Below are positions 3,460 through 56,591 of a stretch of 64,000 nucleotides of DNA, one piece after another (position 1 is the first letter of the stretch; each line of letters opens with the position of its first letter). A model generated the notes under the pieces. The model had not been told where the DNA came from and ran no database searches. It was given only the letters and a program-made list of their open reading frames with translations. Made by a program: the position numbers and the translations under genes. Source of the DNA: Aphrocallistes beatrix (lineage: Eukaryota > Porifera > Hexactinellida > Sceptrulophora > Aphrocallistidae); contig OY725497.1 in the NCBI GenBank assembly GCA_963281255.1, positions 2,604,001 through 2,668,000 on the forward strand. Direction: 5' to 3'.

Positions 3460-4045
3460 GGAACGCGGAATTTGGCCTAAAATCAATTCGGAATTTTACC
3501 TAAAACTGATGTAGAAAATGACCAAAAATTGAAGTAGGAATTTGACCTAAGGAAATTTCCAAAGTAGGAAAATGACCTAATATCGATATAGGACTATGAC
3601 CTAAAATGTGTGAAGTAGGAATAAGACCTAAAACGTGTGAAGTAGGAATAAGCCCTAAAATTGGAGGGAGAGAGAGAGAAAGTAAGCATTTTAGGTTTGA
3701 AATAGTGTTCAATTGAGTGTGAAAGTTGCATTTTTATTCATAAGGGTGGCATTTCAGATCTTAATCCTACTTAGCAGTTTTAGGTCTTATTCTTAATTCG
3801 AAGGTTTTAGGTCTTATTTCTACTTCGCACATTTGAGTCATTTCCTACTTGCCACATTTCTTTGAGTCAAATTCCTATTTCGTTTTTAGGTCAAATTCTT
3901 ACCTCGGAAATTTCTTTAGGTCAAATTCCTACTTCGAATTTAGGTCATTTCCTACTTCCCAAATTTCTTTAGGACAAATTCATACTTCGCAATATTTAGG
4001 TCAAATTCTTGCATTTATTTAGGTCAAATTCCTGCGTCCCTTATA
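3460..4045. repeat. Inverted arrays of a ~20-30-bp unit
   Basis: The left half (to ~3660) repeats GAAGTAGGAATTTGACCTAA-type units. The right half (from ~3770) repeats the reverse complement (TTTAGGTCAAATTCCTACTT). A ~110-bp spacer separates them. The array directly precedes a hAT transposase C-terminal remnant, so it may be a subterminal repeat zone of that element. This is an inference from position only. Confidence 0.65.
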
Positions 4046-4065
4046 CGGATTGCAATCCAAAGGGA

Positions 4066-4299
4066 TTGCTCCAAGAAATACTCCAACTTGGGCTATCTGC
4101 AATGTTTCCAAATACCATAATTGCACTACGTAATTTTGTTAGTTTGCCTGCATCATTGACTTCAGGGGAACGCACCTTCAATGTTTTAAACCAAGTTAAA
4201 AGTTGTTACCGTTCAACTATGGGACAAGGGAGTTTAAATGGGCGTGCCATGCTTAATATCAATTATGATATTGCACGAAGATTTTATTTTATCTTATGA
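4066..4299 (+). pseudogene. hAT transposase C-terminal dimerisation region, fragment
   Basis: About 77 codons ending at a stop at 4297..4299 read as the C-terminal end of a hAT transposase. The motif FVSLPASLTSGERTFNVLNQ matches the dimerisation-region pattern (IP-x-T-S-x-ERSFS-x-L) and is followed by the K-S-C-Y-R-STMGQ-LNG-AML block and an N-x-DIA motif. This is typical of TTF/ZMYM-type hATs. The catalytic part is absent upstream, where only the short repeat array is found, so it is a 5'-truncated relic. An identical copy lies at 10138..10371, probably an assembly duplicate. A partial hAT N-terminus at 63.7 kb belongs to the same broad class but need not be the same element. Confidence 0.7.
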
Positions 4300-4838
4300 A
4301 TTGATTCATTCGCACAGAAAGCATTTATCAATTAAAGCTCGTTTGTATTCACATAATTATACTTATATCATCGTATAATATTTATCACTTCTCACGTTTT
4401 CATTTGTTTTCATTGGAATTGTAGTCTAAATTCTAGCAGTGGCCCGGGCCTCTCTGATTCTCTCAAAGGCCCTGCCAGTCAGACTTAATCCAGTTATGGA
4501 ATTTGGTCGGACTTTTTCCAGTCGGACTTATTCCTGTCATGGAAAAACAGCAGTCGGACTTATTCCAGTCGGCCCAATTCAGTCAACTCTTCATATCGTG
4601 CTCCTTAATAAATTTGAATATTTTACATGTACTTCGTGCAGATTCTAATTCAATGATTTCATCGATGTTGATGTTAAGTAATCTAACTTGAAGATTTGCA
4701 ATCGTTATTTCTGCTGAATTGGCTTTTTTCGCTCTTTTATAAAGAAATGTTGCGACTATATCCTTCTCTTCAAAAAATACAATCTTTTGAACTGTATTAA
4801 ATAGTATACAAGAATGATCAATAATGGTTGAGCTAAAG

Positions 4839-5300
4839 CAGGGGTTCTTAACCGGGGGGGAATTTCAGCATCTCTGGAGAGAAGTGTGTAAGATCTAGGA
4901 TACTAAAAAAATTCTCAGAAGAAGTACAGACTGTTAACAGTGATGCTTATAGTAAAAAGCAAAATTTCAGAATTACGGCAATTGTTCATGAATGAAACTC
5001 TATTTTCAACCCCAAAATTACGACCAAATTACTAATTACAATAAAGTCTTACAGGATTCCAAATCTTGATGAATAGAAAACAATACTAACTTGACAAATA
5101 AATAACAATCTGGATCCAATAGTATAAATGTAAAGAAAATCTATCTAATGGACATTACCAACACACTAGTTACTATCGTGTGTTGGTAAAGTAAAATTTT
5201 TCATACCGTTCAATATTTGGGATGCGTAGAAATACAAGCGGACAAATCATGATTGGGTACCACGAAGGGGAAATTGTGCAAATAAGGTTAAGAACCACTA
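4839..5300. mobile_element. hAT MITE with 8-bp TSD AGCTAAAG
   Basis: Left end CAGGGGTTCTTAACC, right end GGTTAAGAACCACTA. Flanked on both sides by AGCTAAAG (4831..4838 and 5301..5308). TIR sequence and 8-bp TSD are diagnostic for hAT. No ORF of note. Confidence 0.9.
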
Positions 5301-5918
5301 AGCTAAAGCATTTTGAACATTTATCAGGAGTGTATCCCTTACGTTCCACACAAATTTATCTGTCGATTTTGATGGTGGGGAGTCAGTTTCTGATATTTCT
5401 ATATTTTGTGTAACTGGGAGTGAATTTTCAATTTTAGGTCGCCCAGCGCATCCTTTGAAGATCATGCACACCTGACAGGACTAAAGATTGTGATTACTCA
5501 TTCTTTTCTCTTCAGTTTCAATAATGCCAAGAGTTGGAAGTTTATACCTTGAAGGATCTTTGGTATGCCGAGAGAATGATTTGGCACAGCGTCGACATTA
5601 CTTTTTTGGAAACTAGAAATACCATAGCCTACTGTATATAAGGCTTCATAATAAGCGAATTTGGGACTAGGGATGCGGTAGAAGATGGTTGAACTAATAC
5701 ATGAGCAGCCTTAAATCATTAACAAAGCACAATCGAGCTTAGGAATGTATTACCAGCATATATAAATATGGTGTCAAAGTACCTATATCCGTTGTCAAAA
5801 TTTAGATTAGTTACCATATGGTTGCGCAATAGATTATATTTGTGACAAATTTGGTGAGGTCGTTAAGGGCACTTCTAAGTGTTTTTACCATAATATTTTT
5901 TCGCATAGAGCTGAGATG

Positions 5919-6455
5919 CATAGGCGTCGTAACCCACCCGGGTACCCGGCAATGACCGGGCGGCCCAGAGGGAATACCGGGTACTACCCATTATAGTGAC
6001 CGGGTAGCACCCGGTATATGACCGGGTACTACCCATTATAGTGACCGGGTAGCACCCGGTATATGACCGGGTGCTACCCGGTAAAATGCCGGGTGTTACC
6101 CGGTAAAAAGCTGAGTGCTATTATGTACTGGTAATTGGCTGTTACAATTTTGCCCATCCAGGATAGTCGCATCGGAACGAATCGTAATATTTTTAATGAT
6201 ATAGTTTTATTAGACTCCCATTATTGGTCACTGTAACTCCAGTATGTATATATCCATTGATTTTACTAATAATCCAGCCAGCCTTCATATTCTGTACTTA
6301 TACAATAGGAATATTTTTATCAAGGGTTCACGGCCCATTTGGCTGACGGTAACGCTGGATCAGCTGAAGATACGGCCCGATTAACTGACTGAACGGCACT
6401 GGATACTTGTTGCCGGGCAGTCCAAGGGTAGGCAATAAAGTTTACGACGCCTATG
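5919..6455. mobile_element. hAT MITE, CATAGGCG family, TSD CTGAGATG
   Basis: TIRs CATAGGCGTCGTAA and TTTACGACGCCTATG. The target CTGAGATG is duplicated at 5911..5918 and 6456..6463. Inserted within one arm of the P-type foldback. The interior is rich in CCGGGTRCTACCCGG palindromes. Confidence 0.9.
5976..6065. repeat. 45-bp tandem repeat, two units
   Basis: Units 5976..6020 and 6021..6065 are identical and begin ACCGGGTACTACCCATTATA. The second duplicated block has a single unit (12048..12092). This accounts for the whole length difference between the two blocks. Confidence 0.9.
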
Positions 6456-8277
6456 CTGAGATGTGAATGGGTTAATACGAAAAAATTTTTCATGGAATAT
6501 TGCTACATTCCAGTGTTGCTATTGAAACGTGTTTTGGTCAGTTGGGATCATATCTGGAAAACCGCAAGAGCTGGACATTCAAACTTAATTCCATTTGATA
6601 GCCAATAGACTATTTCCTTTTAAGTGATAATATAATCAAAGTGTCTAAATTTAATGGTTTCCAAGTTATTAGACAATTTATCATATTAGTTACTTTTGGT
6701 TATTTGTCGAATATCTCGTAAATCAATGAATTTATACGTCGAAATAATATTATCGCTTAATAGGAAGTAGTCTATTTGCTATCAAATGGAATTATATTTG
6801 AATGTCTAGCTATCGCGGTTTTCAAGATATAGCCCCAACTGACCAAAACACGTTTCCATAGCAACACTGGAATGTAGCAAAATTCCATGAAAAAATCCAA
6901 TTTTTCGTATTAACCCATTCACATCTCAGTGTGGTAAAAACACTTAGAAATGTCCTTAAACGACCTCACCAAATTTGTCACATATATAACCTATTGCGGG
7001 ACCATATGGTGACTAATCTAAATTTTAACGACGGATATGGGTACTTTGACACCATATTTATATATGCTGGTAATACATTCCTAAGCTCTATTGTGCTTTG
7101 TTAATGATTTAAGGCTGCTCATATATTTTACAGATTGTGAACATAGCCTCTTGCTAGTGTCTGTATATAGGGAATTTCGGCACCAAATTGACTCCTCTAT
7201 ATATGCGGAAACATATTAGCGCAGAGTAGCGAAGGAATTGTGCATTTCATGTTACAAGCATGAAATTAGGTACAATGATTCTATACAACATAAGATTCAT
7301 TTAATTAATTAGATTCAAAAAGCCTTATGAGGTTATAATGACGTTTCAAAAGTAAATGGCGAGTTAAGGAAGCCTTACTTCATTACACCCGCACAAGGCA
7401 TTTTTATGTCGAAAACTTTATAGAGGAGACAGTTTTGCATCGTTTTGAGCGGAGCATTTTTTTATATAATGTATACATACCTATTGAGTTATGGTACCAC
7501 AACGGATTTGAGGTTGGTAATTTGTTATAATTTGATTTCAAAATTATTGAACCAATTGTGCATTTTATGTAAAAATCCTCTAAAGTGTGTTTATCTGGCT
7601 TTTGGTGCAAAACTGCAAATTTAACCTCATTCCTTTCAAAGGTATTTTTTGAATCTAATTTTTATATTTTAACCTCTTCAACGTTACATATTTATCCTGC
7701 TATTAGCGATTCTAGGTAAATATTTGTGTCGCTATACTGCTGCCAACACCTGTAAATAATATCAATGTATTTGAAGCCTTAGTTGTTTGATGCTTTATAA
7801 TATTATTGTATGCTCTACGTTAGGTGCTCCAAAAAAACATTAATAATTTTAATTACGAAGGCTGGTCTCACTTGTTTTCGCCAATATCTCGGAACCGGTA
7901 GATTTTAGGTAATTAAAATGTATTATTAGCTGATATAAAACCACCCCCAAATATCTCAAAAATAACGTTGCTAGTTTCTTTGCCTATCAGAAGTCTGCAC
8001 GAGGCGGAGCCTACCTGCACGACCACTAAATCGACTCCAAATTGCTTGAATTTTTTAATGGTGAATATTTGGTGATCAATGGAAACTATTTGAATGGTGT
8101 GCATCTAAAGATTCTACAATTTTTTGGAGTACCCTGCACTCGTGCATACAAGATAAGCTTTACATTTTGTAAATAAATAACGAAGAGGCAATTGAAAAAT
8201 TGGATTCCATTGAAGAATTATATTATAGTGATCCTTACTTTTAATGATATTTCCTGATCTTATATACGTACATATGT

Positions 8278-8956
8278 AGGGTTGCCAGACGTCCGGTTTT
8301 GACCCGGACAGTCCGGGTTTCGAGCCATTTGTCCGGAGTCCGGGAATGGGATGAATTTGTCCGGGTTTGGAGAATTTTGAGTCCTGTCCGACTACTCACT
8401 ACTCAGGACTGTCAATATATTCTATCAGTATCTAAGTTATTTAGTTAGCTATTGCTCTGCTGCAAAAGTGTCACTCTCTAATATTTGAAGAAAGAGTGCA
8501 AGTTTGTGAAATTTGGATTATTACTGATTTGTAATGCTACCATAGTGTACGTAAACTACTGAGTACTGACCCTAACTGCCTAACATGTTTCGTAATGAGT
8601 ATACTTGGAATCTTCTTTTTGTTTCTGTGTTCAATGGCTTCAACGATGAATTATGATATGTAGATATGTAGTCACGTGAGTCAAGGGTCATTTTATGTGT
8701 CTTTGCAGCTCTGGTTTACAGTGAATTACCTACATTCAAATTGTTATTTCAAATTTTATTCTCTGAGATTTTAGTTTACCCGCAATAACTAATAGACGAA
8801 ATATAATTTATAATTTCTCTTGCTTATTTATGTATTCTGTATATTTTGACGATAAGTTATTGATACAAATTTAAAATTAGATAACATTACAATAAGCATT
8901 TTTTTAGAGAATAAATTATGTCCGGGGTTTGGCCTTTAGAAAATCTGGCAACCCTA
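8278..8956. mobile_element. Probable hAT non-autonomous element
   Basis: Ends AGGGTTGCCAGACGTCCGG and its partial inverse (TCTGGCAACCCTA), a terminus typical of hAT elements. Subterminal TCCGG words recur near both ends. The flanks do not give an exact 8-bp TSD, so borders are approximate. Confidence 0.6.
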
Positions 8957-9033
8957 ACTGTATGTGTTTTGAAATGAGTGATTTTATTTTATTAGAAATA
9001 TGTTAAGGGTATATTCATTTATATGTTGAAAAT

Positions 9034-9176
9034 ACAGTCGACACCGAATAATAGAATCACCGGATATTCAGGTCAATCGTTTATTCGGACCAATTTTGGC
9101 AACACCGGAATAGTTTCACACATAGAAGCTAATATGATATAGTATTTTCGGTTAATAGAGTTCTCCGCTTAATAAA
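9034..9176. mobile_element. pogo-like MITE fragment
   Basis: Starts CAGTCGACACCGAATAATAG after TA and carries the TTCACACATAGAAGCTAATA block and a GGTTAATAGAGTTCTCCGCTT tail shared with the element at 90..261. The right TIR is missing. Confidence 0.5.
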
Positions 9177-9393
9177 AGGTTAATATTCGGTAAATTTTGT
9201 GGATTTTCAAAATTCTAAAAAATGTTTTGGGCAATAAACCTGTTAAATTCCTTCGGGACACTTGGTCCTGGATATTTTTTTCTGGTCATTACCGTACCAA
9301 TAGATTCAACCGGTCCGCCTGAACCTTAACTATAAAATTTTCCAAATTAACTTTGTGTTTGTTTTAATAAAGTGAATTAAATTTTATTTTACA

Positions 9394-9807
9394 CAAGCGC
9401 GCTTCGCTTGCTTGCGCTGCGCGGCTGGAGGACACTTTGTGTCCACCGGAGGCGCCCTGCGGGCGCCTGGGGTCACATTGATTAATTACAGAGTTGCACG
9501 CGGGCTACCCGCGAGTTGCGGGCCGACTTTTCTTATCGGCCCGCGGGCCGTGTGGGCCGAATGTAATAGTTTGCGGGCTCCGCGGGCCGGAAATCTTGGC
9601 AGAACTCCTCGCGATGACAACCGAGACGATGTGTTTAACTGTCACAGGGTACCAATTAAGGAATACTTACGTAAATGGAACTTTGTTAGTTTCCACTTAT
9701 TTGTGTTTGCAGAAACTCACTCCCATAAAAGGATTCCCTAAGTGTCGCTCTATAGTTAGTAACTAACAAAGTGGGCTAAAAATATTTATGCGGGCTTCTT
9801 GCGGGCC
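9394..9807 (+). repeat. Family A repeat 5' part, interrupted and cut by the gap
   Basis: The hairpin end is intact (9394..9480). It is interrupted at 9489 by the hAT element starting CAGAGTTGCACGCGGGC, and the sequence ends at the N gap. The complete version is at 15421..16299. Confidence 0.8.
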
Positions 9808-10007: not shown

Positions 10008-13000
10008 GAATTTAGGTCATTTCCTACTTCCCAAATTTCTTTAGGACAAATTCATACTTCGCAATATTTAGGTCAAATTCTTGCATTTATTTAGGTCAAA
10101 TTCCTGCGTCCCTTATACGGATTGCAATCCAAAGGGATTGCTCCAAGAAATACTCCAACTTGGGCTATCTGCAATGTTTCCAAATACCATAATTGCACTA
10201 CGTAATTTTGTTAGTTTGCCTGCATCATTGACTTCAGGGGAACGCACCTTCAATGTTTTAAACCAAGTTAAAAGTTGTTACCGTTCAACTATGGGACAAG
10301 GGAGTTTAAATGGGCGTGCCATGCTTAATATCAATTATGATATTGCACGAAGATTTTATTTTATCTTATGAATTGATTCATTCGCACAGAAAGCATTTAT
10401 CAATTAAAGCTCGTTTGTATTCACATAATTATACTTATATCATCGTATAATATTTATCACTTCTCACGTTTTCATTTGTTTTCATTGGAATTGTAGTCTA
10501 AATTCTAGCAGTGGCCCGGGCCTCTCTGATTCTCTCAAAGGCCCTGCCAGTCAGACTTAATCCAGTTATGGAATTTGGTCGGACTTTTTCCAGTCGGACT
10601 TATTCCTGTCATGGAAAAACAGCAGTCGGACTTATTCCAGTCGGCCCAATTCAGTCAACTCTTCATATCGTGCTCCTTAATAAATTTGAATATTTTACAT
10701 GTACTTCGTGCAGATTCTAATTCAATGATTTCATCGATGTTGATGTTAAGTAATCTAACTTGAAGATTTGCAATCGTTATTTCTGCTGAATTGGCTTTTT
10801 TCGCTCTTTTATAAAGAAATGTTGCGACTATATCCTTCTCTTCAAAAAATACAATCTTTTGAACTGTATTAAATAGTATACAAGAATGATCAATAATGGT
10901 TGAGCTAAAGCAGGGGTTCTTAACCGGGGGGGAATTTCAGCATCTCTGGAGAGAAGTGTGTAAGATCTAGGATACTAAAAAAATTCTCAGAAGAAGTACA
11001 GACTGTTAACAGTGATGCTTATAGTAAAAAGCAAAATTTCAGAATTACGGCAATTGTTCATGAATGAAACTCTATTTTCAACCCCAAAATTACGACCAAA
11101 TTACTAATTACAATAAAGTCTTACAGGATTCCAAATCTTGATGAATAGAAAACAATACTAACTTGACAAATAAATAACAATCTGGATCCAATAGTATAAA
11201 TGTAAAGAAAATCTATCTAATGGACATTACCAACACACTAGTTACTATCGTGTGTTGGTAAAGTAAAATTTTTCATACCGTTCAATATTTGGGATGCGTA
11301 GAAATACAAGCGGACAAATCATGATTGGGTACCACGAAGGGGAAATTGTGCAAATAAGGTTAAGAACCACTAAGCTAAAGCATTTTGAACATTTATCAGG
11401 AGTGTATCCCTTACGTTCCACACAAATTTATCTGTCGATTTTGATGGTGGGGAGTCAGTTTCTGATATTTCTATATTTTGTGTAACTGGGAGTGAATTTT
11501 CAATTTTAGGTCGCCCAGCGCATCCTTTGAAGATCATGCACACCTGACAGGACTAAAGATTGTGATTACTCATTCTTTTCTCTTCAGTTTCAATAATGCC
11601 AAGAGTTGGAAGTTTATACCTTGAAGGATCTTTGGTATGCCGAGAGAATGATTTGGCACAGCGTCGACATTACTTTTTTGGAAACTAGAAATACCATAGC
11701 CTACTGTATATAAGGCTTCATAATAAGCGAATTTGGGACTAGGGATGCGGTAGAAGATGGTTGAACTAATACATGAGCAGCCTTAAATCATTAACAAAGC
11801 ACAATCGAGCTTAGGAATGTATTACCAGCATATATAAATATGGTGTCAAAGTACCTATATCCGTTGTCAAAATTTAGATTAGTTACCATATGGTTGCGCA
11901 ATAGATTATATTTGTGACAAATTTGGTGAGGTCGTTAAGGGCACTTCTAAGTGTTTTTACCATAATATTTTTTCGCATAGAGCTGAGATGCATAGGCGTC
12001 GTAACCCACCCGGGTACCCGGCAATGACCGGGCGGCCCAGAGGGAATACCGGGTACTACCCATTATAGTGACCGGGTAGCACCCGGTATATGACCGGGTG
12101 CTACCCGGTAAAATGCCGGGTGTTACCCGGTAAAAAGCTGAGTGCTATTATGTACTGGTAATTGGCTGTTACAATTTTGCCCATCCAGGATAGTCGCATC
12201 GGAACGAATCGTAATATTTTTAATGATATAGTTTTATTAGACTCCCATTATTGGTCACTGTAACTCCAGTATGTATATATCCATTGATTTTACTAATAAT
12301 CCAGCCAGCCTTCATATTCTGTACTTATACAATAGGAATATTTTTATCAAGGGTTCACGGCCCATTTGGCTGACGGTAACGCTGGATCAGCTGAAGATAC
12401 GGCCCGATTAACTGACTGAACGGCACTGGATACTTGTTGCCGGGCAGTCCAAGGGTAGGCAATAAAGTTTACGACGCCTATGCTGAGATGTGAATGGGTT
12501 AATACGAAAAAATTTTTCATGGAATATTGCTACATTCCAGTGTTGCTATTGAAACGTGTTTTGGTCAGTTGGGATCATATCTGGAAAACCGCAAGAGCTG
12601 GACATTCAAACTTAATTCCATTTGATAGCCAATAGACTATTTCCTTTTAAGTGATAATATAATCAAAGTGTCTAAATTTAATGGTTTCCAAGTTATTAGA
12701 CAATTTATCATATTAGTTACTTTTGGTTATTTGTCGAATATCTCGTAAATCAATGAATTTATACGTCGAAATAATATTATCGCTTAATAGGAAGTAGTCT
12801 ATTTGCTATCAAATGGAATTATATTTGAATGTCTAGCTATCGCGGTTTTCAAGATATAGCCCCAACTGACCAAAACACGTTTCCATAGCAACACTGGAAT
12901 GTAGCAAAATTCCATGAAAAAATCCAATTTTTCGTATTAACCCATTCACATCTCAGTGTGGTAAAAACACTTAGAAATGTCCTTAAACGACCTCACCAAA

Positions 13001-15834
13001 TTTGTCACATATATAACCTATTGCGGGACCATATGGTGACTAATCTAAATTTTAACGACGGATATGGGTACTTTGACACCATATTTATATATGCTGGTAA
13101 TACATTCCTAAGCTCTATTGTGCTTTGTTAATGATTTAAGGCTGCTCATATATTTTACAGATTGTGAACATAGCCTCTTGCTAGTGTCTGTATATAGGGA
13201 ATTTCGGCACCAAATTGACTCCTCTATATATGCGGAAACATATTAGCGCAGAGTAGCGAAGGAATTGTGCATTTCATGTTACAAGCATGAAATTAGGTAC
13301 AATGATTCTATACAACATAAGATTCATTTAATTAATTAGATTCAAAAAGCCTTATGAGGTTATAATGACGTTTCAAAAGTAAATGGCGAGTTAAGGAAGC
13401 CTTACTTCATTACACCCGCACAAGGCATTTTTATGTCGAAAACTTTATAGAGGAGACAGTTTTGCATCGTTTTGAGCGGAGCATTTTTTTATATAATGTA
13501 TACATACCTATTGAGTTATGGTACCACAACGGATTTGAGGTTGGTAATTTGTTATAATTTGATTTCAAAATTATTGAACCAATTGTGCATTTTATGTAAA
13601 AATCCTCTAAAGTGTGTTTATCTGGCTTTTGGTGCAAAACTGCAAATTTAACCTCATTCCTTTCAAAGGTATTTTTTGAATCTAATTTTTATATTTTAAC
13701 CTCTTCAACGTTACATATTTATCCTGCTATTAGCGATTCTAGGTAAATATTTGTGTCGCTATACTGCTGCCAACACCTGTAAATAATATCAATGTATTTG
13801 AAGCCTTAGTTGTTTGATGCTTTATAATATTATTGTATGCTCTACGTTAGGTGCTCCAAAAAAACATTAATAATTTTAATTACGAAGGCTGGTCTCACTT
13901 GTTTTCGCCAATATCTCGGAACCGGTAGATTTTAGGTAATTAAAATGTATTATTAGCTGATATAAAACCACCCCCAAATATCTCAAAAATAACGTTGCTA
14001 GTTTCTTTGCCTATCAGAAGTCTGCACGAGGCGGAGCCTACCTGCACGACCACTAAATCGACTCCAAATTGCTTGAATTTTTTAATGGTGAATATTTGGT
14101 GATCAATGGAAACTATTTGAATGGTGTGCATCTAAAGATTCTACAATTTTTTGGAGTACCCTGCACTCGTGCATACAAGATAAGCTTTACATTTTGTAAA
14201 TAAATAACGAAGAGGCAATTGAAAAATTGGATTCCATTGAAGAATTATATTATAGTGATCCTTACTTTTAATGATATTTCCTGATCTTATATACGTACAT
14301 ATGTAGGGTTGCCAGACGTCCGGTTTTGACCCGGACAGTCCGGGTTTCGAGCCATTTGTCCGGAGTCCGGGAATGGGATGAATTTGTCCGGGTTTGGAGA
14401 ATTTTGAGTCCTGTCCGACTACTCACTACTCAGGACTGTCAATATATTCTATCCGTATCTAAGTTATTTAGTTAGCTATTGCTCTGCTGCAAAAGTGTCA
14501 CTCTCTAATATTTGAAGAAAGAGTGCAAGTTTGTGAAATTTGGATTATTACTGATTTGTAATGCTACCATAGTGTACGTAAACTACTGAGTACTGACCCT
14601 AACTGCCTAACATGTTTCGTAATGAGTATACTTGGAATCCTCTTTTTGTTTCTGTGTTCAATGGCTTCAACGATGAATTATGATATGTAGATATGTAGTC
14701 ACGTGAGTCAAGGGTCATTTTATGTGTCTTTGCAGCTCTGGTTTACAGTGAATTACCTACATTCAAATTGTTATTTCAAATTTTATTCTCTGAGATTTTA
14801 GTTTACCCGCAATAACTAATAGACGAAATATAATTTATAATTTCTCTTGCTTATTTATGTATTCTGTATATTTTGACGATAAGTTATTGATACAAATTTA
14901 AAATTAGATAACATTACAATAAGCATTTTTTTAGAGAATAAATTATGTCCGGGGTTTGGCCTTTAGAAAATCTGGCAACCCTAACTGTATGTGTTTTGAA
15001 ATGAGTGATTTTATTTTATTAGAAATATGTTAAGGGTATATTCATTTATATGTTGAAAATACAGTCGACACCGAATAATAGAATCACCGGATATTCAGGT
15101 CAATCGTTTATTCGGACCAATTTTGGCAACACCGGAATAGTTTCACACATAGAAGCTAATATGATATAGTATTTTCGGTTAATAGAGTTCTCCGCTTAAT
15201 AAAAGGTTAATATTCGGTAAATTTTGTGGATTTTCAAAATTCTAAAAAATGTTTTGGGCAATAAACCTGTTAAATTCCTTCGGGACACTTGGTCCTGGAT
15301 ATTTTTTTCTGGTCATTACCGTACCAATAGATTCAACCGGTCCGCCTGAACCTTAACTATAAAATTTTCCAAATTAACTTTGTGTTTGTTTTAATAAAGT
15401 GAATTAAATTTTATTTTACACAAGCGCGCTTCGCTTGCTTGCGCTGCGCGGCTGGAGGACACTTTGTGTCCACCGGAGGCGCCCTGCGGGCGCCTGGGGT
15501 CACATTGATTAATTACAGAGTTGCACGCGGGCTACCCGCGAGTTGCGGGCCGACTTTTCTTATCGGCCCGCGGGCCGTGTGGGCCGAATGTAATAGTTTG
15601 CGGGCTCCGCGGGCCGGAAATCTTGGCAGAACTCCTCGCGATGACAACCGAGACGATGTGTTTAACTGTCACAGGGTACCAATTAAGGAATACTTACGTA
15701 AATGGAACTTTGTTAGTTTCCACTTATTTGTGTTTGCAGAAACTCACTCCCATAAAAGGATTCCCTAAGTGTCGCTCTATAGTTAGTAACTAACAAAGTG
15801 GGCTAAAAATATTTATGCGGGCTTCTTGCGGGCC
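10008..15834. other. Right copy of the apparent 5.9-kb duplication
   Basis: Repeats 3936..9807 with offset 6072 before the VNTR and 6027 after it. Internal counterparts: hAT relic 10138..10371, hAT MITE 10911..11372, P-type foldback 11695..13149 with hAT MITE 11991..12482, and hAT-like element ~14305..14983. Apart from these elements it holds AT-rich sequence with no supported gene. Confidence 0.85.
10138..10371 (+). pseudogene. hAT transposase C-terminal fragment, duplicate
   Basis: Identical in translation to the relic at 4066..4299 and in the same context. Most likely the same locus represented twice because contig ends were not merged. Confidence 0.65.
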
Positions 15835-20047: not shown

Positions 20048-20114
20048 TATATATATATCATCCTTACTATTAAAACTCGATTAATGTGTATATATATATA
20101 TACTATATATATAT

Positions 20115-20646
20115 CTGTAACGAATTGATTGAAGATACTGCCAGGGGCAGAAAGCTGATTTTTGGCATGTGAGAGTTTTTTGGCTATGGCTCCAGTAAGT
20201 TCTGAGCTCAGAGCAAAATGTCGACTCATCATGGAATTATGACGTCATTGTCACATTTTTAAAAGTTAAGCAATACAGTTATTTGAGGATTACTCAGCCA
20301 TTATTGGAGATAGAAGGCTGAAATTTTAATAGAATCTGTATACTAACATACCACACATACAGGGGCGGTCCCAGGGGGGGGGGCATCCGGGGCATTTGTC
20401 CCTAGTTTGATTGTGCGGCCCCGGATTTCATTCGACCATCTAAGCCAAAATCATAGGAAGGTCCCGGATTTTTTTAATTTTGCCCCGCCTCGCCCCGGTT
20501 TGGAAAATTCCTGTGACCACCCCTGCACACATATGATGCAACTATCATCAAAAATGATGACTCATTATGACGTCATCATTACGCATCAAAAATTGAACAA
20601 ATTTGATGATTTTTCGTGCGATATCGATCATAACAGTAGGACAGAC
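20115..20646 (-). repeat. Family A repeat, first part, split by a P element
   Basis: Reverse copy starting CTGTAACGAATTGATTGAAG. It is interrupted by a 166-bp hAT MITE at 20360 and stops at GTAGGACAGAC, where the P element begins. It resumes at 24763. Confidence 0.85.
20360..20525. mobile_element. hAT MITE (166 bp), TSD CACACATA
   Basis: TIRs CAGGGGCGGTC and GACCACCCCTG. CACACATA is duplicated at 20352..20359 and 20526..20533. Inserted in a family A copy. Confidence 0.9.
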
Positions 20647-20777
20647 CATAGCCTACTTAATATAAGGCCTGACAGTAACTTAAAAATTATGGACCAAGGA
20701 TGAAGATGGTTATAGTTATCAAACCATCCTTACTATTAAAACTCGATTATTGTGTATGTGTATATATATATATATAT

Positions 20778-21273
20778 CTGTAACGAATTGATTGAAGAAA
20801 CTGCCGGGCGCAGAAGGCTGATTTTTGGCATGTGGGAGTCTTTTGGCTATGGCTCCAGTAAGTTCTGAGTTCAGAGCAAAATGTCGACTCATCATGGAAT
20901 TATGACGTCATTGTCACATTTTTAAAAGTTAAGCAACACAGTTATTCGGGCATAACTCAGCCATTATAGGAGATAGAAGGCTGAAATTTTAATAGAATCT
21001 GTATACTAACATACCTCACATATGATGCGACTTTCATCAAAAAATGATGACTCATCACTTTGTTATGACGTCATCATTACGCATCAAAAATTTTAAAATT
21101 GACAAATTTGGTGATTTTTCGAGTGATATCGATTAGCACAGTAGAACAGACATATTTAGAGATGTTATCTCCCTTATAATTAACCAATGTGACTCCAGGC
21201 GACCGAAGGGATCCTCCGGCGGACACAAAGTGTCCGCTAGCCGCGCAGCGCAAGCAAGCGCGAAGCGCGCTTG
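20778..21273 (-). repeat. Family A repeat inserted in the P element
   Basis: Full reverse copy (CTGTAACGAATTGATTG to GCGAAGCGCGCTTG), flanked by (TA)n and a 26-bp motif at 20725..20750 on the left. It shows that family A moved after the P element arrived. Confidence 0.85.
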
Positions 21274-21462
21274 TAATATTTAATATCGAAAATATTATAA
21301 TAATGAACCATATTTATTGTAAATATTATTTGAATGAATACTATTTTGATCACATTATTCAAAACTATTATATTACGCATACCATTAGCTTACTTTTAAT
21401 CTCTCTCTGCTTTTAATTAATATTAGCTTCTCTCATCCCGACTCATTCCAACTCATTTCGAC

Positions 21463-23586
21463 ATGCCAAACTCTTGTTCTGTCCCTGGATGCAAGAGTAA
21501 CTACAACGTTGGTGATCGGGTTCCAGTATTCAAGATGCCTGAAAGTCCACCTGATCTGAAATATGCCTGGACACGTGCTCTACATCGTGAGGATATAGGT
21601 GACCTCAAGGCTGTTTTTGTATGCATCAAGCATTTCCAGAAAGAAGACATAGACTCCACTTTCAAAGTACCAAAAGGAGATGGTACTTTCACTGAAGTAC
21701 CACGCGTGAAGCCAATGCTAAAGGAAGGTACTGTTCCAAGTCTACTACCTGGCTGTCCAGCTTACTACTCAACTAAATCTACCAAACGGACTCGCTTGTC
21801 ATACGATGAAAAGGAAGAAGATTTGATGAACCAAACCCTGCAACTTAGTTTGAGATCCGAAAGTGAGGAGAAAAGGAAGTTCATCGTCAACTCTCTAAAA
21901 GACCTGAAAGATAAGTTAACCTTGATTTCACTACCTAATAGTTGGTTTGTATGGTTTCGTGATGAAAATAACATCACGTTCGCTCTTGCTAAGATGACTG
22001 AAAGAAATATGTCTGTGAATTTGTACCTTGAAATCAATTCCTATCTATCTACCTCAGCCTATTTTCATGGGCAAAACATTCCCGTTTCTATTGCTGCAAT
22101 TAATGACATCCGACAAATTGAATCTGTTTTGCAGGAACTTGCTTTAGAACACGATTCTAATTCCAAAAACACCAAGCAATCATTTCATATACCCCGAGCC
22201 AAAGAGCATATTAAGGAAGTCATCAATGATTTACTTCATCATAATGAACTTCATAGTGATAGCTCAGAATTAGCGCGTTTGCAATTCATCCTCTGTCAAT
22301 TAGAGAATACATTTATCCCCAAGAATAGACGACGATACAATATTATAACACAAATCATGGCTATTAAGACGCATCTGATATCTCCTGCTTGTTATAAGTA
22401 TCTTCAGAGTTTAAACTGTATATCTCTTCCTCATGTTCATACATTAGAAAAATTGTATGCTTCTTTTGGTCTTGAAAACGATTTCTGTGCATATCTTCGC
22501 CAGGCCACTTCTTGCTTTAGTCCAAGGGAAAGAAATGTTATTGTTCAAATGGATGCAATTCACGTTAGATCTGATATTTCATATAAAGGGGGGAAAATAT
22601 TTGGTCCTAATTTAACTCCTGATGATCCAACGAGAACTGTATTTGCTGTTATGGTGTCCAGTTTACATAAAAAATGGTCTTGTATCTCTCGCTTAATACC
22701 TTGTGCATCCAACTCTGCTGAAACTATATTCCCAATCATAAAATCTTGCATAATCGATATCGAGCATTGCGATCTAAGGGTGCAAGTCATTTCAACTGAT
22801 AATTATCCTTTAAATGTGAATTTGTTTAAACTATTTTCTTCGAATGGAAAGTTAGAGACTAATGTACCTCACCCATTTGACAGCAGTAGAATTCTCTTTC
22901 TAACATTTGACTTTGTTCATTTATTAAAAAGTATCCGTAATAACTGGTTAAACCAAAAAGATTATGATAAAACGTTTCATTTTCCGAATCTGGTAAATTT
23001 TAAAGCTGATTATACCGATTATCCACTTAAATTTGGAAGTGCATCCTTTCAAGATGTAAGTCAATTATATAATTCTGAAAGAGCAAGTTTAGCCAAGTTA
23101 GCACCTCATTTGACTATGAAAGCATGCTTTCCATCTAGCATAGAGCGTCAAAATGTAAAACTGGTGTTGAAAGTCGTTAACGAATTAACTATTTCTGCAC
23201 TAACCATCCAGAACGGATTGCGTACCCCAGAATTTAGAAATAATACACCTGAGTTTGTTGACATCCTTCTGACTGTTTGGAGATTATTTAACGTTAATAC
23301 ACCATTTAAAGGAATACGTTTGAACGATCATTTCTCTGAACCTTTGACTTTTAATGACGAACGGTTTTTATTCTTGACTCGTGTAGTTTTCTGGTTAGAT
23401 GCCTGGCAAGCTCTACCAGGAAAAATTGGAAAATTGAGTAAACAAACATACACTAGTTTTAGGGATGCTTGTATTGCACTACCACAAATTGCTAACCATC
23501 TGACTAACTCTTGTGGGTTTTCCTATTGTTATCCTCCTTTTTACAAACAGATCCATTGGAACACCACTTTGGGCTATATCGTATGA
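21463..23586 (+). CDS. P-element/THAP9-type transposase, N-terminal and catalytic part
   Basis: A 707-residue ORF from ATG. Residues 1-90 form a THAP zinc finger: C5, C10, W36, C54 and H57 in MPNSCSVPGC...CIKHF give the C2CH pattern, with P26. THAP domains bind transposon ends in P elements and THAP9. A basic/helical linker follows. The RNase H-like core then includes QMDAIHVR (D364) and STDNYPLNV (D446), candidate catalytic aspartates, plus DFVHLLKSIRNNW (D483, H486), the conserved D-x-x-H-x-x-K-x-x-RN block. The frame ends at 23584..23586, just after the sequence for the third acidic residue is passed in another frame. The continuation is the overlapping ORF at 23511. Role: cut-and-paste transposition, acting in the nucleus. 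Start chosen because THAP proteins begin MPxxC. Confidence 0.85.
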   Translation: MPNSCSVPGCKSNYNVGDRVPVFKMPESPPDLKYAWTRALHREDIGDLKAVFVCIKHFQKEDIDSTFKVPKGDGTFTEVPRVKPMLKEGTVPSLLPGCPAYYSTKSTKRTRLSYDEKEEDLMNQTLQLSLRSESEEKRKFIVNSLKDLKDKLTLISLPNSWFVWFRDENNITFALAKMTERNMSVNLYLEINSYLSTSAYFHGQNIPVSIAAINDIRQIESVLQELALEHDSNSKNTKQSFHIPRAKEHIKEVINDLLHHNELHSDSSELARLQFILCQLENTFIPKNRRRYNIITQIMAIKTHLISPACYKYLQSLNCISLPHVHTLEKLYASFGLENDFCAYLRQATSCFSPRERNVIVQMDAIHVRSDISYKGGKIFGPNLTPDDPTRTVFAVMVSSLHKKWSCISRLIPCASNSAETIFPIIKSCIIDIEHCDLRVQVISTDNYPLNVNLFKLFSSNGKLETNVPHPFDSSRILFLTFDFVHLLKSIRNNWLNQKDYDKTFHFPNLVNFKADYTDYPLKFGSASFQDVSQLYNSERASLAKLAPHLTMKACFPSSIERQNVKLVLKVVNELTISALTIQNGLRTPEFRNNTPEFVDILLTVWRLFNVNTPFKGIRLNDHFSEPLTFNDERFLFLTRVVFWLDAWQALPGKIGKLSKQTYTSFRDACIALPQIANHLTNSCGFSYCYPPFYKQIHWNTTLGYIV

Positions 23587-24326
23587 TGTCGGGTTCTAAT
23601 TACCATGTCTCCTATCTTCAAATTCTCGAAACCGAGCGTCGACTCAAACTGTCTAGCATATTAAATATATTTGCTGACCGACAAGACTCTTGTTTGCCAT
23701 CAATTCAGTCATTTGTCAAATCCTTTTCTTCTCCTTATTCCACTAGTGATGTTGAATTCGATTTAGAGCCATTTCTTGATGAAATTCCCGATCTATCAAC
23801 CATTGAATGCAGTCAACAGGTGCTTCAATCATTGGCCTTTATTGCAGGCTATTCTGTCCATCAATATCTAAAATCATCAAAACCATGTCATATCTGTCTT
23901 AATCTGTTTACAGTTGATAAAGAATTTCTTCTTGATTTAGCCTCGGATTCTGAGTTTAAACTTCTGCAGTTAACGGACCGTGGCGGACTTAAGTACCCAT
24001 CTGAACCTGTTTTGAATTCTATTCTTGTTTTATGGAAGACATTTTATGCCATCGAAAATGATAAAGAGCTGTTGGCAAAGCTAGTAAGTGGACCTTCTAG
24101 AAAAATATTAGTTGAACTCACATTGATGTACTTGGAAGATAGTGATAATCGTGATACTAATATTTGGAAGTCTTATTGTGTTAACTGTGAAGTATTCAAT
24201 TGGAGCATCTTACAGAAACTTGTCTTTACCTCATCGAATTGCTTTCTCGCAAATAAAGTCAAGAATTATAATTCTCAGGTCCTTTCGAAGGTTGTAGAAA
24301 AACGTAAATTAAAGAAATTTTCTTAA
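23511..24326 (+). CDS. P-element transposase, C-terminal part (-1 frame)
   Basis: Overlaps the end of the upstream ORF by about 75 bp in the -1 frame. It opens with TDPLEHHFGLYRMMSGSN, the P/THAP9 hallmark (DPLE-x-x-FG-x-R-x-x-x-G-x-N), which holds the third catalytic acid (E codon 23559..23561). The rest is a helical C-terminal domain with a CHIC-x(2)-F motif (residues ~129-135). There is no ATG at the start and the listed first codon is TTG, so it is not an independent gene. The switch point lies within ~23511..23545, near a CCTTTTTAC homopolymer. A one-base indel in the element or assembly is likeliest. The local slippery sequence is a poor match to the X-XXY-YYZ rule, so programmed frameshifting is not favoured. 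Stop at 24324..24326. Confidence 0.75.
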   Translation: MWVFLLLSSFLQTDPLEHHFGLYRMMSGSNYHVSYLQILETERRLKLSSILNIFADRQDSCLPSIQSFVKSFSSPYSTSDVEFDLEPFLDEIPDLSTIECSQQVLQSLAFIAGYSVHQYLKSSKPCHICLNLFTVDKEFLLDLASDSEFKLLQLTDRGGLKYPSEPVLNSILVLWKTFYAIENDKELLAKLVSGPSRKILVELTLMYLEDSDNRDTNIWKSYCVNCEVFNWSILQKLVFTSSNCFLANKVKNYNSQVLSKVVEKRKLKKFS

Positions 24327-24736
24327 TTATTAGTTTACTTCTGTATTTCCTACTTGTTTATTTGTATTACTTTGTTAATTCTTATTTATATATGTAGTTT
24401 CTTGGTGCCTTTGATTCATCTATTATAAACAGAATGTGTGTTAGTGCTAGCAAGAGTCCGGGTGAGGAGAGAGGATGAGAAAGAAAGCTATTATTTCTGT
24501 TGTGTGTTGTATTTCTACTAATTATATTATAGAATGTACAGTTTGTATGTACTATTAATATTAAATTATGATATCCAATCACCATTCTCACTATACATGA
24601 TAATTTTAACCACAGGGTAACAGGGCAGTAATGTTTGGGAGTATTAGAGATGCATGGTTAACTTAATAACTTAATTTCACTGGATTATAGAAAATAAAAT
24701 TTCCCATCTTGTTGTTCATCCATGGTACATTTACTG
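24327..24736 (+). other. P-element 3' untranslated and subterminal region
   Basis: AT-rich, no ORF of note. It leads from the transposase stop to the right TIR. No gene seen. Confidence 0.6.
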
Positions 24737-24762
24737 TCAGGCCTTATATTAAGTAGGCTATG

Positions 24763-24890
24763 GACAGACGTATTTAGAGATGTTATCTCCCATATAATTA
24801 ATCAATGGTGACCACAGGCGCCCAAAGGGCGCCTCCGGCGGACACAAAGTGTCCGCCAGCCGCGCAGCGCAAGCAAGCGAAGCGCGCTTG
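24763..24890 (-). repeat. Family A repeat, second part after the P insertion
   Basis: Continues the copy broken at 20646: GACAGACGTATTTAGAGATG through the hairpin to CGCGCTTG, followed directly by the 26-bp motif (24891..24913). Confidence 0.85.
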
Positions 24891-24942
24891 TTACTATTAA
24901 AACTCGATTAACGTTTGTGTATGGGTGTATATACATACATAT

Positions 24943-27635
24943 GGGGAATTCCATGTCAAAAAACCAATCATTTCACCACCATCAACCGATTGGTCTGAAA
25001 TTTGCTGTGCAACAAGCCACTGATATGTCTTTACTTTTGTGAACTTTCAGATCAATCGGTCATGTGGTTTTTGAGTTATGACGTCACAGATTTTTGAATT
25101 TTTGCTGTTTCACCAAGGATTTTCACAATGGTAAATCACCATCCCATTTTAAACTCGAATAACTCGAAAAATATTCATCAAACTCTTTCATAAATTGCTA
25201 TACTTATGTTTTTACATATGAAGAATACGAAAAACATGAGTAAATTAAGTTTTGAGTTCCTTTTCTTTGTGAAAACTGGAACTGAAACCTACTCCGGAAG
25301 CAAACCGGAACTATGACGTAGCAATAATGTATATTTTGGAAACTGTTTTATTTTTTGGTATTTTACTGTTTAATAAAGTCATAATTCATTGTATAAATAA
25401 ATCTATTTGGTTTCCATATGTTCTCTTTGAGTTTTTCACATTTTTGTACCTGTAAACGCTTTCTATATATAATTCACAATTTTATCCCTTTTGTGAAAAT
25501 ATAAACAACTCTCAATTTCTACCATATTGAAAATCCTTTTATGTCTTCTTCTATAATATCGCTCATTCTTACAACATTCTACAATCGATATGTGCATTAG
25601 GAATTATAAGTATGTTGTAAATTTGACCGCAGACGGACTAAACAGTGCAATGCTGTTGTTGCTTTGTAATAGGAATGCAATAAATGTCACTAATGAGTTG
25701 AAAAGTTAATTTAAGAGGACTAATATTTGCTGAACAATCCGATATTTAGTCCGACCATAGTACTCAAATGGAACAGGGATGCGGTCGAAGATGGTTGAAC
25801 AAATGCATGATCTGCCTAAAATCATGAACGACGCAGAATAGAGCTTCGAAATGTATTACCAGCATATATAAATATGACGCCAAACTATTCACATCCGTTC
25901 TTAAAATTTCGATTAGTCATCATATGATTGCACAATAGGTTATATTTGGGACAAATTAAGTAATTTTCAGAGGTTGTTTAAGGGCACTTCTAAGTGGTTG
26001 TTTATTACAGTTTTTTCGTATAGAACTGAGCTGTGAATGGGTTGATGCAAAAGTTTGAATTTTTTTCATGGAATGTTGCTACATTCCAGCGTTGCTATGG
26101 AAACGCATCTTGATCAATTGAGGTCATATCTTGTAAACCGCAATAACTATGCATTCAAATTTGATCTTATTTGATAGCCAATAGACTACTTCCTATGAAG
26201 CCATAACATAATTTCCACCTCTAGATTCAATGGTTTACGAGTTATCAGACAATTTATCATTTTGGTCACATTTGGTAATTTGTCTAATAATTTCGAAACC
26301 ATTGAATCTAGACGTGGAAATTATGTTATGGCTTCATAGGAAGTAGTATATTGGCTATCAAATAAGATCAAATTTGAATGCATAGTTATTGCGGTTTACA
26401 AGATATGACCTCAACTGATCAAAATGTGTTTCCATAGCAACGCTGGAATGTAGCAAAATTCCATGAAAAATATTCACTTTTTGCATCAACCCATTCACAG
26501 CTCAGTTCTATACAAAAAAACTATAATAAAACAACTACTTAGAAGTGCCCTTAAACAACCTCTGAAATTAACTAAATTGTGTCCCAAATATAACCTATTG
26601 TGCAGTCATACTATGATGACTAATCGAAATTTTAAGAACTGATATGAATACATTGGCGTCATATTTATATATGCTAGTAATACATTTCGAAGCTCTATTC
26701 TGCGTCGTTCATGATTTTAGGCAGATCATGCATTTGTTCAACCATCTTTGACCACATCCCTGGTCCATTTTTGAGATGTGAATGGGAGGCTTTATATACA
26801 GAGTACTATGGTCGGACTAAATATCGGATTGTTCAGCAAATATTAGTCCTCTTAAATTAACTTTTCAACTCATTAGTGACATTTATTGCATTCCTATTAC
26901 AAAGCAACAACAGCATTGCACTGTTTAGTCTGTCTGCGGTCAAATTTACAACAGACTTATAATTCCTAATGCACATATCGATTGTAGAATGTTGTAAGAA
27001 TGAGCGATATTATAGAAGAAGACATAAAAGGATTTTCAAAATGGTAGAAATTGAGAGTTGTCAGGTCAATTTTATATTTTCACAAAAGGGATAAAATTGT
27101 GAATTATACTATATAGAAAGCGTTTACAGGTACAAAAATGTGAATAACTCAAAGAGAACACATGGAAACCAAATGAATTTTCTTATACAATGAATTATGA
27201 CTATAAACAGTAAATACCAAAAAATAAAACAGTTTCCAAAATATACATTTTTGCTACGTCATAGTTCCGGTTTGCTTCCGGAGTAGGTTTCAGTTCCAGT
27301 TTTCACAAAGAAAAGGAACTTAAAACTTAATTTACTCATGTTTTTCGTATTCTTCATATGTAAAAACATAAGTATAGCAATTTATGAAAGAGTTTGATGA
27401 ATATTTTTAGAGTTATTCGAGTTTAAAATGGGATGGTGATTTTACCATTGTGAAAATCCTTGGTGAAACAGCAAAATTTCAAAAATCTGTGACGTCATAA
27501 CTCAAAAACCACATGACCGAATGATCTGAAAATTTCACAAAAGTAAAGACATATCAGTGGCTTGTCGCACAGCAAATTTCAGACCAATCGGTTGATGGTG
27601 GTGAAATGGTTGGTTGATTTGACATGGAATTCCCC
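24943..27635. repeat. 2.7-kb palindrome (foldback element with nested P-type MITE)
   Basis: Ends GGGGAATTCCATGTC and its inverse. The left arm 24943..25755 and right arm 26811..27635 are inverted near-copies including the GTGACGTCATAACTC-type block. They reach without break to a P-type MITE at the dyad centre. The whole can fold end to end. It sits in (TA)n between two family A copies. The superfamily of the outer element is unresolved. Confidence 0.85.
25756..26810. mobile_element. P-type foldback MITE at the palindrome centre
   Basis: Ends CATAGTACTC and GAGTACTATG. It carries the GGGATGCGGTCGAAGATGG block and the inverted ATAGCCAATAGACTACTTCC blocks of the family. The flanking heptamers GTCCGAC and GTCGGAC differ by one base, compatible with a 7-bp TSD made at a palindromic target. 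Confidence 0.75.
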
Positions 27636-27651
27636 GTATATATATATATAT

Positions 27652-28148
27652 CTGTAACGAACTGATTGAAGAAACTGCCAAGCGCAGAAGGCTGATTTTT
27701 GGCATGTGGGAGTCTTTTGGCTATGGCTCCAGTAAGTTCTGAGGTCAGACGAAAAAGTTGACTCATCATGGAATTATGACGTCATTGTCACCTTTTTTAT
27801 AATTAGAAATTTCAGTTTTTCGACCATAACAGCCATTTTAGGTGATAGAAGGCTGAAATTTTAATAGAATGTGTATATTATTATACCTCACATATGATGC
27901 AACTATCATCAAAAAATGATGACTCATCACTCTGTTATGACGTCATCATTACGCATAAAATTTTTAAAAATTGACAAATTTGGCAATTTTTCGTGCGATA
28001 TAGACTACTGTATAACAGTAGGACAGACGTATTTAGTGATGTTATCTCCCTTATAGTTAATCAGTGTGACCCCAGGCGACCGAAGAGAGCCTCCGGCGGA
28101 CACAAAGTGTCCGCCAGTCGCGCAGCGCAAGCAAGCGATTCGCGCTTG
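27652..28148 (-). repeat. Family A repeat, full copy
   Basis: CTGTAACGAACTGATTGAAG to TTCGCGCTTG. It begins 17 bp after the palindrome end, across a TA tract. Confidence 0.85.
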
Positions 28149-28179
28149 TTATGATAGAAAATAGTAAGGATTTCAAACA

Positions 28180-32004: not shown

Positions 32005-33372
32005 CATAGCCTACTCTAATAATGCCTCACAGTAAAATAACCAAGGATGCGGTAATAGCCGAATGGATTAATACACGATTAGCCTAAAGTCGTCAACCAT
32101 GTAGGATAGGCATTAAGAATGTATTACCAGTACATATAAACATGGCATCAAATAACATATATCCGTTGTCAAAATTTCGATTCGTCATCATATCATTGCG
32201 CAACAGGTCATTTTAAGCACGATTTTGGCAATTTTCTAAGCTGTTTTAACCCTATTTCTAAATGATATTAAGGTGTGATTTTTGTGTAGAACCAAGATTA
32301 GTACGAGTAGATTTGAAAAATTTGTAATTTTTCAATGGAATGTTGCTGCATTCCTGCGTTGCTATGGTAAAGCATTTTGGTCAGTTTGGGCCATATCCTG
32401 CAAACTGTAAGAACTAGGTCTTCAAATTTGATTTTATTTGATAGGCAATTGGCTACTTCCTATTAGTTAATAATACAATTTAAACTTCTAAATTCACAGA
32501 CTATAGAGTTATGAGACAATTTAGTGTTTTGGTCACATTCTTAAAACAACCCATAACTCAAAACTCGTTGAATTTAGAAGTTCAAGTTGTATTATCACCC
32601 ATATCGGTTGCTAAAATTTTGATTAGTCGTCATATGAATTCATATTTACCAACCCTCCAGGGATCCCTGGATTATCCTGGGAAATGACTTATGATCCAGG
32701 GATCCAGGGATTTTGAGCTTTTAACTAGCCTATAATAATTTCCATTAAAGCAATATTCAGATCTTATTCGATAGCCAACAGCTTACTTCCTATCAAGCAA
32801 AAATATAATTTCCTCGTTTCATCATATTGGTCACATTTGGTAATTTGACTAATAACTATTGAAATCAGACTTGGAAAGTATATTATAGGAAGAGTCTTGG
32901 CCATCAAAATAAGATCAGAATTTGAGTGCCTAGTCATAAAGGCCAAGTTTTGGAAATAGAAAAAAAACCTGTGGGTTGGGCAAGAGCTAGCGAAGCGAGC
33001 GACGGTAAGGGGGTCTGGGGAAATTTTTTAAACCTTAGATGCTCAAATATCGATATACAGCTATTGTTGTTACCTAGGGAAAAGAAAATCTCGGACTATA
33101 GTGGAAGAAAAATGTAATAGGGATATATATTTAGACTCAATTAACATAATTTGGGTTAATTCGTCATAAAAATAACCTATTGCGCAAGTATACTATGATG
33201 ATCAAAATTTTAGCAACAGATTTGGGTACTTTGGCACCATATTTATATATGCAGGTAATACATCCCTAAGCTCTATTCTGCGTGGTTAATGATTTTAGGC
33301 AGATCATGTATTAGTTCAACCATCTTCGACCGAGATTTAGATGGCAGGCCTAATATACAGAGGGCAGTGGTA
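32005..33372. mobile_element. P-type foldback MITE, degraded, with insertions
   Basis: Starts CATAGCCTACTCTAATAATG. Both arms carry family blocks (TTACCAGTACATATAAACAT, CATTCCTGCGTTGCTATGG). The right end near GGCCTAATATACAGAGGGCA is decayed, and no TSD was found there. Repeat D (33020..33165) and a GGGATCCCTGGATTATCC-rich segment (~32650..32730) interrupt it. Confidence 0.6.
33020..33165. repeat. Dispersed repeat D, copy 2
   Basis: Inverted relative to 29195..29340. Contains CGATATACAGCTATTGTTGT and CTCGGACTATAGTGGAAGA. Confidence 0.7.
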
Positions 33373-55666: not shown

Positions 55667-56591
55667 CATAGCCTACTATATATAAGGCCTCAGAGTAACT
55701 TGCGGATTTGGGACTAGGGATGCGGTAGAAGATGGTTGAACTAATACATGAGCTGCCTTAAATCATTAACAAAGCACAATAGAGCTTAGGAATGTATTAC
55801 CAGCATATATAAATATGGTGTCAAAGTACCCATATCTGTTGTTAAAATTTAGATTAGTCACCATATGGTTGCACAATAGGGAATATTTGTGACAAATTTA
55901 GTGATTTGCAGAGGTCGTTTAAGGGCACTTCTAAGTGTTTTCATTATAAAAATTTTCGCATAGAACTGAGATGTTAATGGGTTATTAATACGAAAAATTT
56001 GGAATTTTTTCATGGAATGTTGCTACATTCCAGTGTTGCTATGGAAACGTGTTTTGGTCAGTTGGGGTCATATCTTGAAAACCGAGATAGCTAGACATTC
56101 AAATGTAATTCCATTTGATAGCCAATAGACTATTTCCTATTAAGTGATAATATAATGTATTTGTCTAAATTCAATGGTTTACGAGGTATTAGATAATTTA
56201 TCATATTGGTCACATTTGGTAATTTGTCGAATATCTCGTAAACCATTGAATTTAGACAAATAAATTAAATTATCGCTTAATAGGAAGTAGTCTATTCGCT
56301 ATCAAATGGAATTACATTTGAATGTCTAGCTATCGCGGTTTGCAAGATATGACCCCAACTGACCAAAACACGTTTCCATAGCAACACTGGAATGTAGCAA
56401 CATTCCATGAAAAAAATACAAATTTTTCTTATTAACCCATTCACTTCTTAGTTCTATGCGAAAATTTTATAATGAAAACACTTAGAAGTGCCCTTAAACG
56501 ACCTCTGAAAATCACCAATTGTATTAGTTCAACCATCTTCTACCGTATCCCTAGTCAAGTTACTCTGAGGCCTTATATACAGTAGGCTATG
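55667..56591. mobile_element. P-type foldback MITE, complete (925 bp), TSD ATGCATG
   Basis: CATAGCCTACTATATATAAG and inverse. ATGCATG is duplicated at 55660..55666 and 56592..56598. Long arms pair over most of the element. The subterminal block GGGACTAGGGATGCGGTAGA matches GGACCAAGGATG just inside the P element's left TIR, supporting cross-mobilisation. Confidence 0.9.

Follow-up and report, generated by a model that had tools for sequence, protein, structure and literature searches.

A P-superfamily transposon of Aphrocallistes beatrix and its probable repeated insertion at a palindromic site of a Helitron-like repeat

P elements are a model for THAP-domain transposases and for the pairing of transposon ends, and few of those outside insects have mapped ends. 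In the available parts of the papers cited here and below, the Drosophila P element is described with a THAP and RNase H/GBD transposase, 31-bp terminal inverted repeats (TIRs) and 8-bp target site duplications (TSDs) (PMC7776569), and its target is given as GTCCGGAC, again with an 8-bp TSD (PMC3276498). TSDs of 8 bp are also given for the P element of Anopheles (PMC1562414) and for zebrafish Pdre2, which has 13-bp TIRs starting with CATACC (PMC10983969). Two other Drosophila members duplicate mostly 7 bp: 1360 (Hoppel/ProtoP), with a modal TSD of 7 bp at 274 of 279 sites and the palindromic motif GTTNAAC (PMC3276498), and Galileo, with a 15-bp palindromic target motif (PMC4168063). In this work we analysed a P-superfamily DNA transposon at positions 20647-24762 of a 64,000-nucleotide stretch of the A. 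beatrix genome (C11:2604001-2668000, hereafter the window) and its relatives in the 100.5-Mb assembly of 28 contigs. The whole is best explained, at a probability of roughly 85%, by a cut-and-paste P-superfamily transposon and repeated insertion at a near-optimal palindrome within a genomic repeat, here called family A.

The element interrupts a family A copy, with the following borders:

20059-20646, + strand: left part of the host family A copy, interrupted at about 20360-20527
20640-20646, no strand: left TSD, GACAGAC
20647-20678, + strand: 5' TIR, 32 bp
24731-24762, - strand: 3' TIR, 32 bp
24763-24769, no strand: right TSD, GACAGAC
24763-24907, + strand: right part of the host family A copy

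The two TIRs match over 32 of 32 bp and diverge directly inward, so that the perfect TIRs and the exact GACAGAC duplication of the original prediction both stand. A genome search with the 32-bp TIR pattern gave 486 matches at up to 3 mismatches, other copies sharing the same borders, and 1,371 related ends were found when three variable TIR positions were masked. Reversed-pattern controls gave 0 in both searches, which rules out a chance TIR. Identity between sister copies and the window copy is 97-99% (nested family A insert left out), indicating that the latter moved recently. Among relatives, TIRs also start with CATGGCC, CGTGACC or CATAGATG, and their transposases are about 52-68% identical to that of the window copy in the catalytic region; the window element opens with CA and the CGTGACC subfamily with CG.

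Over many copies the TSD measured 7 bp, in 34 of the 37 insertions readable at both ends (30 exact and 4 with one mismatch), and the same length was found in the subfamilies with CATGGCC, CGTGACC and CATAGATG TIRs. Different insertions shared a 7-mer in their flanks in 2 of 1,332 comparisons, which is explained by two family A insertions with GATGGAC. The proposed P-superfamily identity with a 7-bp duplication is supported, and the 8-bp TSD of P elements in the narrow sense is absent. The 7-bp TSD is not new, since 1360 and Galileo have the same. With 1360 the element shares the superfamily, the 7-bp TSD, a palindromic GT...AC target and, in two relatives with complete frames (L042 and L053), a transposase in a single open reading frame (ORF), although the motif is GTTNAAC there and GTYNRAC with strong flanking TA here. 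Galileo is alike in superfamily, in its mostly 7-bp TSD and in a 15-bp palindrome; its TIRs are 0.5-1.2 kb long, whereas those of the window copy measure 32 bp and the nearly perfect inverted ends of one relative (L044, C6:2264392) about 180 bp, and a box lies at +37/+47 here. Pdre2/THAP9 resembles it as a P-like element of a non-insect animal with a similar TIR start, but differs in its 13-bp TIRs and 8-bp TSD.

Family A is a non-autonomous repeat of about 550 bp with many copies in the window (e.g. 20724-21300 and 27637-28152) and 5,348 genome-wide matches to its target site. It starts with TCCTTACTATTAAAACTCG, contains a TA microsatellite and ends in a GC-rich hairpin followed by CTTG; in the single family A insertion for which an empty site was seen, entry was between A and T, with no TSD. 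These copies are Helitron/HINE-like. At the insertion position, several untouched copies of the window (28029, 62811, 46900, 19673 and 15930) read GTAGGACAGAC-RTATTTAG (GTAG-GACAGAC-RTATTTAG) or a close variant. The empty site is thus as had been predicted from the repeat, since GACAGAC is present in untouched copies. Other copies of the window carry diverged 7-mers there, such as GACAGAA, GACAGGT and GATGCAC.

Beyond the original prediction, this family A site turned out to be a recurrent target. Right junctions between a P-type end and family A were found 98 times at one exact position (34, 30, 22 and 12 at 0, 1, 2 and 3 mismatches; control 0), together with 110 left junctions, and about 1.8% of the 5,348 family A sites carry a P end. 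Pairing of the 98 right junctions with 100 of the 110 left ones gave at least 59 insertions of 34-5,929 bp, the 34-bp one being a remnant, and 47 of these 59 have identical TSDs. The hotspot also holds 4 of the 27 TIR pairs from the 32-bp genome search, window copy included, and 4 ends of the CGTGACC class; 9 further ends adjoining it read AATGCTATG and are not tied to a transposase.

From 30 insertion sites, family A hotspot sites excluded, we derived a 15-bp motif of approximately ATAR-GTYNRAC-YTAT (in short form about ATARGTYNRACYTAT), which is palindromic around the TSD centre and whose strongest positions are the flanking T and A. Equally good palindromy arose in 2 of 2,000 column shuffles, and leave-one-out scores averaged 4.8 at real sites versus -8.0 in the window. 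By this motif the hotspot ranks first in each of the three family A copies tested. Its GACAGAC variants score 10.3-10.7, a value reached by 2-4 of 63,552 window positions and predicting about 1,200-1,700-fold enrichment. Two other family A sites were searched after the motif had been fixed. The second site (score 6.0-7.4, second-best in two of the three copies) has 9 junctions versus 98 at the hotspot, a raw comparison in which the family A copies still carrying the second site are uncounted; at up to 2 mismatches the counts are 4 and 86. A decoy 13 bp past the TSD, its score of -4.3 computed after its search, gave 0 junctions at up to 2 mismatches in the genome search. As family A carries a near-optimal copy of the motif (TAG-GACAGAC-RTAT), the site would have received P elements from at least two subfamilies in many independent insertions, including that of the window copy.

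Several results weigh against this explanation. Three of the 37 insertions have no TSD match, and at the hotspot 39 right junctions and 41 of the listed left ones are unpaired. All 21 matches of the decoy search lie at exactly 3 mismatches and are consistent with empty copies of family A. In the transposase, the GTP-binding insertion domain PF21788 reached E values of 0.02 and 0.0034, below the Pfam cut-off. The enrichment over random insertion comes to roughly 3,100-fold, an imprecise value because two pattern counts are mixed in it, and thus around twice what the motif predicts. Finally, the motif scores the GATGGAC variant about 8-fold lower, and for this type 15 junctions stand beside 1,398 empty sites, compared with 98 beside 5,348 overall (rough denominators); its rate is a bit over half of the overall one, so the motif over-predicts the gap between the two family A variants.

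The last two results also speak for the alternative that survives best, namely that chromatin or replication properties of family A, and not a sequence motif, give rise to the hotspot. We consider this unlikely: the insertions fall at a single base position, use of the second site is about as weak as expected from its score, and the decoy is unused at up to 2 mismatches.

More doubtful still is that one or a few P insertions in family A were amplified by transposition of family A itself, the shared position reflecting common descent. Family A is abundant and apparently mobile, 28 of the 59 paired insertions have a like length of 1,000-1,100 bp, and two of the uncommon TSD variants recur among the insertions, as shared descent would also allow. 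However, 8 of the 47 pairs with identical TSDs (one of them the 34-bp remnant) duplicate an uncommon 7-mer on both sides: GACAGGC in 3, GAGAGAC in 2, and GATGTAC, GATGAAC and GACAGTC. This is expected if each element entered a family A copy that had already diverged. Moreover, the inserts range widely in length, both element orientations occur at the hotspot (C6:3720323 versus C15:1903305), a further TIR class lies at the same position, and insertions occur at the second, weaker site of family A too. Given the uncommon TSD variants on both sides, the varied lengths and the other TIR classes, repeated insertion is favoured over shared descent.

In a search of titles and abstract openings, with subscription papers and Repbase reports outside it, neither a P hotspot in a Helitron-like repeat nor a P element of a hemichordate was found among the papers listed. 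Plant long terminal repeat (LTR) retrotransposons are described, in the part of the source at hand, as targeting specific regions of other elements, often palindromes, in nested fashion (PMC6911290). The principle of targeting another element is the same, but those are LTR elements of plants and not P elements.

The coding capacity of the window copy is divided between two frames, and a further family A copy lies in its leader:

20728-21274 (approximate, border may slide 1 bp), + strand: nested family A copy in the 5' leader, Helitron-like, non-autonomous
21463-23586, + strand: transposase frame 1, 707 aa, with THAP domain (aa 5-94), N-terminal part of RNase H (aa 334-458) and catalytic Asp at aa 364 and aa 446
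23511-24326, + strand: transposase, second frame, 271 aa, with the catalytic Glu in DPLEHHFG (nt 23559-23561)

The original prediction of a THAP finger with P core motifs was borne out. The N-terminal C2CH THAP domain has an E value of 1.2e-10, above the Pfam cut-off, and is also found in two uninterrupted relatives, and the P-type TNP-like_RNaseH_N domain has 1.8e-7, likewise above the cut-off. The RNase H triad and D(2)H residues of the P superfamily are named in the available part of PMC8230255. In the window copy the DDE triad with its D(2)H motif is present, both Asp and DFVH lying in the first ORF and the Glu in the second, in a register taken from the alignment to 6p5a. Near codon 694 the frame breaks, and five relatives (L040, L041, L042, L051 and L053) have a single frame through this point. 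'Near-intact', as the copy had been called, does not hold for the frame, which is split over two ORFs, nor for the leader with its 547-bp family A insert, which is missing from four sister copies (L040, L041, L055 and L027).

The transposase search, in which 63 of 1,582 candidates were scored, gave 86 matches, and 30 loci, some overlapping, were examined. An uninterrupted Met-to-stop frame was found in two of the 30, L042 (958 aa) and L053 (953 aa), both with TIRs and an exact 7-bp TSD; the window copy is broken. Compared with the structure of the Drosophila P transposase (6p5a), L042 aligns over residues 307-726 (E 5.5e-5), with the two Asp and the Glu in register, and the phmmer alignment extends over the GTP-binding insertion region. 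Its triad is complete. In L053, by contrast, the first catalytic Asp is missing, and L051 carries a Tyr at that position, so an open frame does not imply a working enzyme. The window copy is therefore a recently moved and now broken one, with no single open transposase frame.

It is very improbable that the element belongs to another THAP-bearing superfamily such as Kolobok, or that it is a domesticated THAP9-like gene. THAP domains are indeed widespread in this genome, with at least 150 matches (150 scored among 339 candidates), many in long open frames, which is a large THAP load for 100 Mb. Kolobok elements have TTAA as their TSD. Kolobok is rejected, as the TSDs of the 37 insertions are not TTAA and the RNase H match is TNP-like/P, and a single-copy domesticated THAP gene is rejected by the TIRs, the TSDs and the many copies. 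The least probable alternative, to which we give practically no weight, is that the true TSD, like that of Drosophila P, measures 8 bp (GGACAGAC) and the ends are unequal by one base: in the window copy the TSD is preceded by a G, the same as the terminal G, but other copies repeat an exact 7-mer whose preceding base is often not G, which refutes it.

Inside each end of the element lies a short box, putatively a transposase site:

20693-20701, + strand: subterminal box ACCAAGGAT, a putative transposase (THAP) site, at +47 from the 5' end
24718-24726, - strand: counterpart ACCATGGAT of this box near the 3' end, at +37

With at most 1 mismatch, the inward-pointing 9-bp box ACCANGGAT is present in 73 of 74 ends, which come from related copies and so are not independent, and its start lies 36-38 or 46-48 bp in from the terminus. 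As controls, 20 scrambled motifs yielded 0-15 and the reverse complement 0. Both ends were scored in 36 elements, of which 24 are asymmetric, with two spacings that differ by 9-10 bp, about one helical turn; the longer spacing is 5' in all 13 elements with the transposase direction given (compared by eye). The 12 symmetric ones are six short copies with GTAT TIRs (about 0.4-1.5 kb), L044, L052, L053, L068 and the pair L042/L045, whose transposases are 99% identical and which lie in two places with different exact TSDs. L080, also a GTAT copy, reads 47/37. On a tree of 19 transposase pieces there are at least two changes between symmetric and asymmetric ends, six of the pieces being without geometry and the long branch L067 unsure.

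Drosophila P has a box of its own that differs in sequence from the one here. Its THAP sites lie at bp 53-63 (5') and 41-51 (3') (PMC3688188); its 9- and 21-bp spacings are given as left and right in PMC7776569 and in reverse order in PMC3688188, whose coordinates we used, both papers being taken from their available parts. The order of spacing is the same as in our +47/+37 ends, but the gap is 12 bp there and 9-10 bp here, and relatives with symmetric ends occur here.

The element would move as follows. The ACCANGGAT box inside each end is most likely what the THAP domain binds, the RNase H (DDE) domain would cut at the CATAG...CTATG termini, and staggered joining 7 bp apart on a two-fold symmetric target would leave the 7-bp TSD. 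The hotspot would be made by sequence preference alone, and if the window copy was already frame-broken, the transposase of a relative could have moved it. In anatomy the element is an ordinary member of the P superfamily of the 7-bp kind, and it comes with a natural record, unusually clear, of how targets are chosen and ends are laid out. More tentatively, and somewhat short of probable, unequal spacing of the transposase sites (compare the 12/23 rule of V(D)J) may be optional: both 37/47 and 47/47 elements have moved, and the tree shows two or more switches between them. In addition, an abundant Helitron-like repeat may serve as landing site for several P subfamilies. Several subfamilies, showing both end geometries, occur here in one genome alongside thousands of near-identical target copies, about 2% of them with a P end. 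This makes target preference measurable from natural insertions, and the need for unequal end spacing can be put to a natural test.

Two further P-type sequences lie in the window:

32005-32060 (end approximate), + strand: second P-type end, GACAGAC followed by CATAGCC, at the same family A position; a right end for it was not seen in the window TIR search
55667-56591: 925-bp relative of non-autonomous size, TIRs each with 1 mismatch to the masked pattern, TSD ATGCATG (7 bp)

The window has a GC content of about 36%. An inverted repeat of 838 bp, 95% identical, adjoins the element (24928-25765 and 26801-27650), and a direct duplication of about 5.9 kb (3936-9807 and 10008-15834, 99.6-99.9% identity) is either very recent or an assembly effect. 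The mitochondrial code of the COX1 gene on contig C28 (L089) is hemichordate-like, Table 3 of PMC3121625 giving this set for Saccoglossus and, AGG excepted, for Rhabdopleura; if C28 is the mitochondrion of the host, a non-insect host is likely. In this gene TGA stands for Trp, ATA for Ile and AAA for Lys, AGA falls mostly at positions expected to be Ser, and AGG does not occur, judged against the residues that we take to be conserved at these sites.

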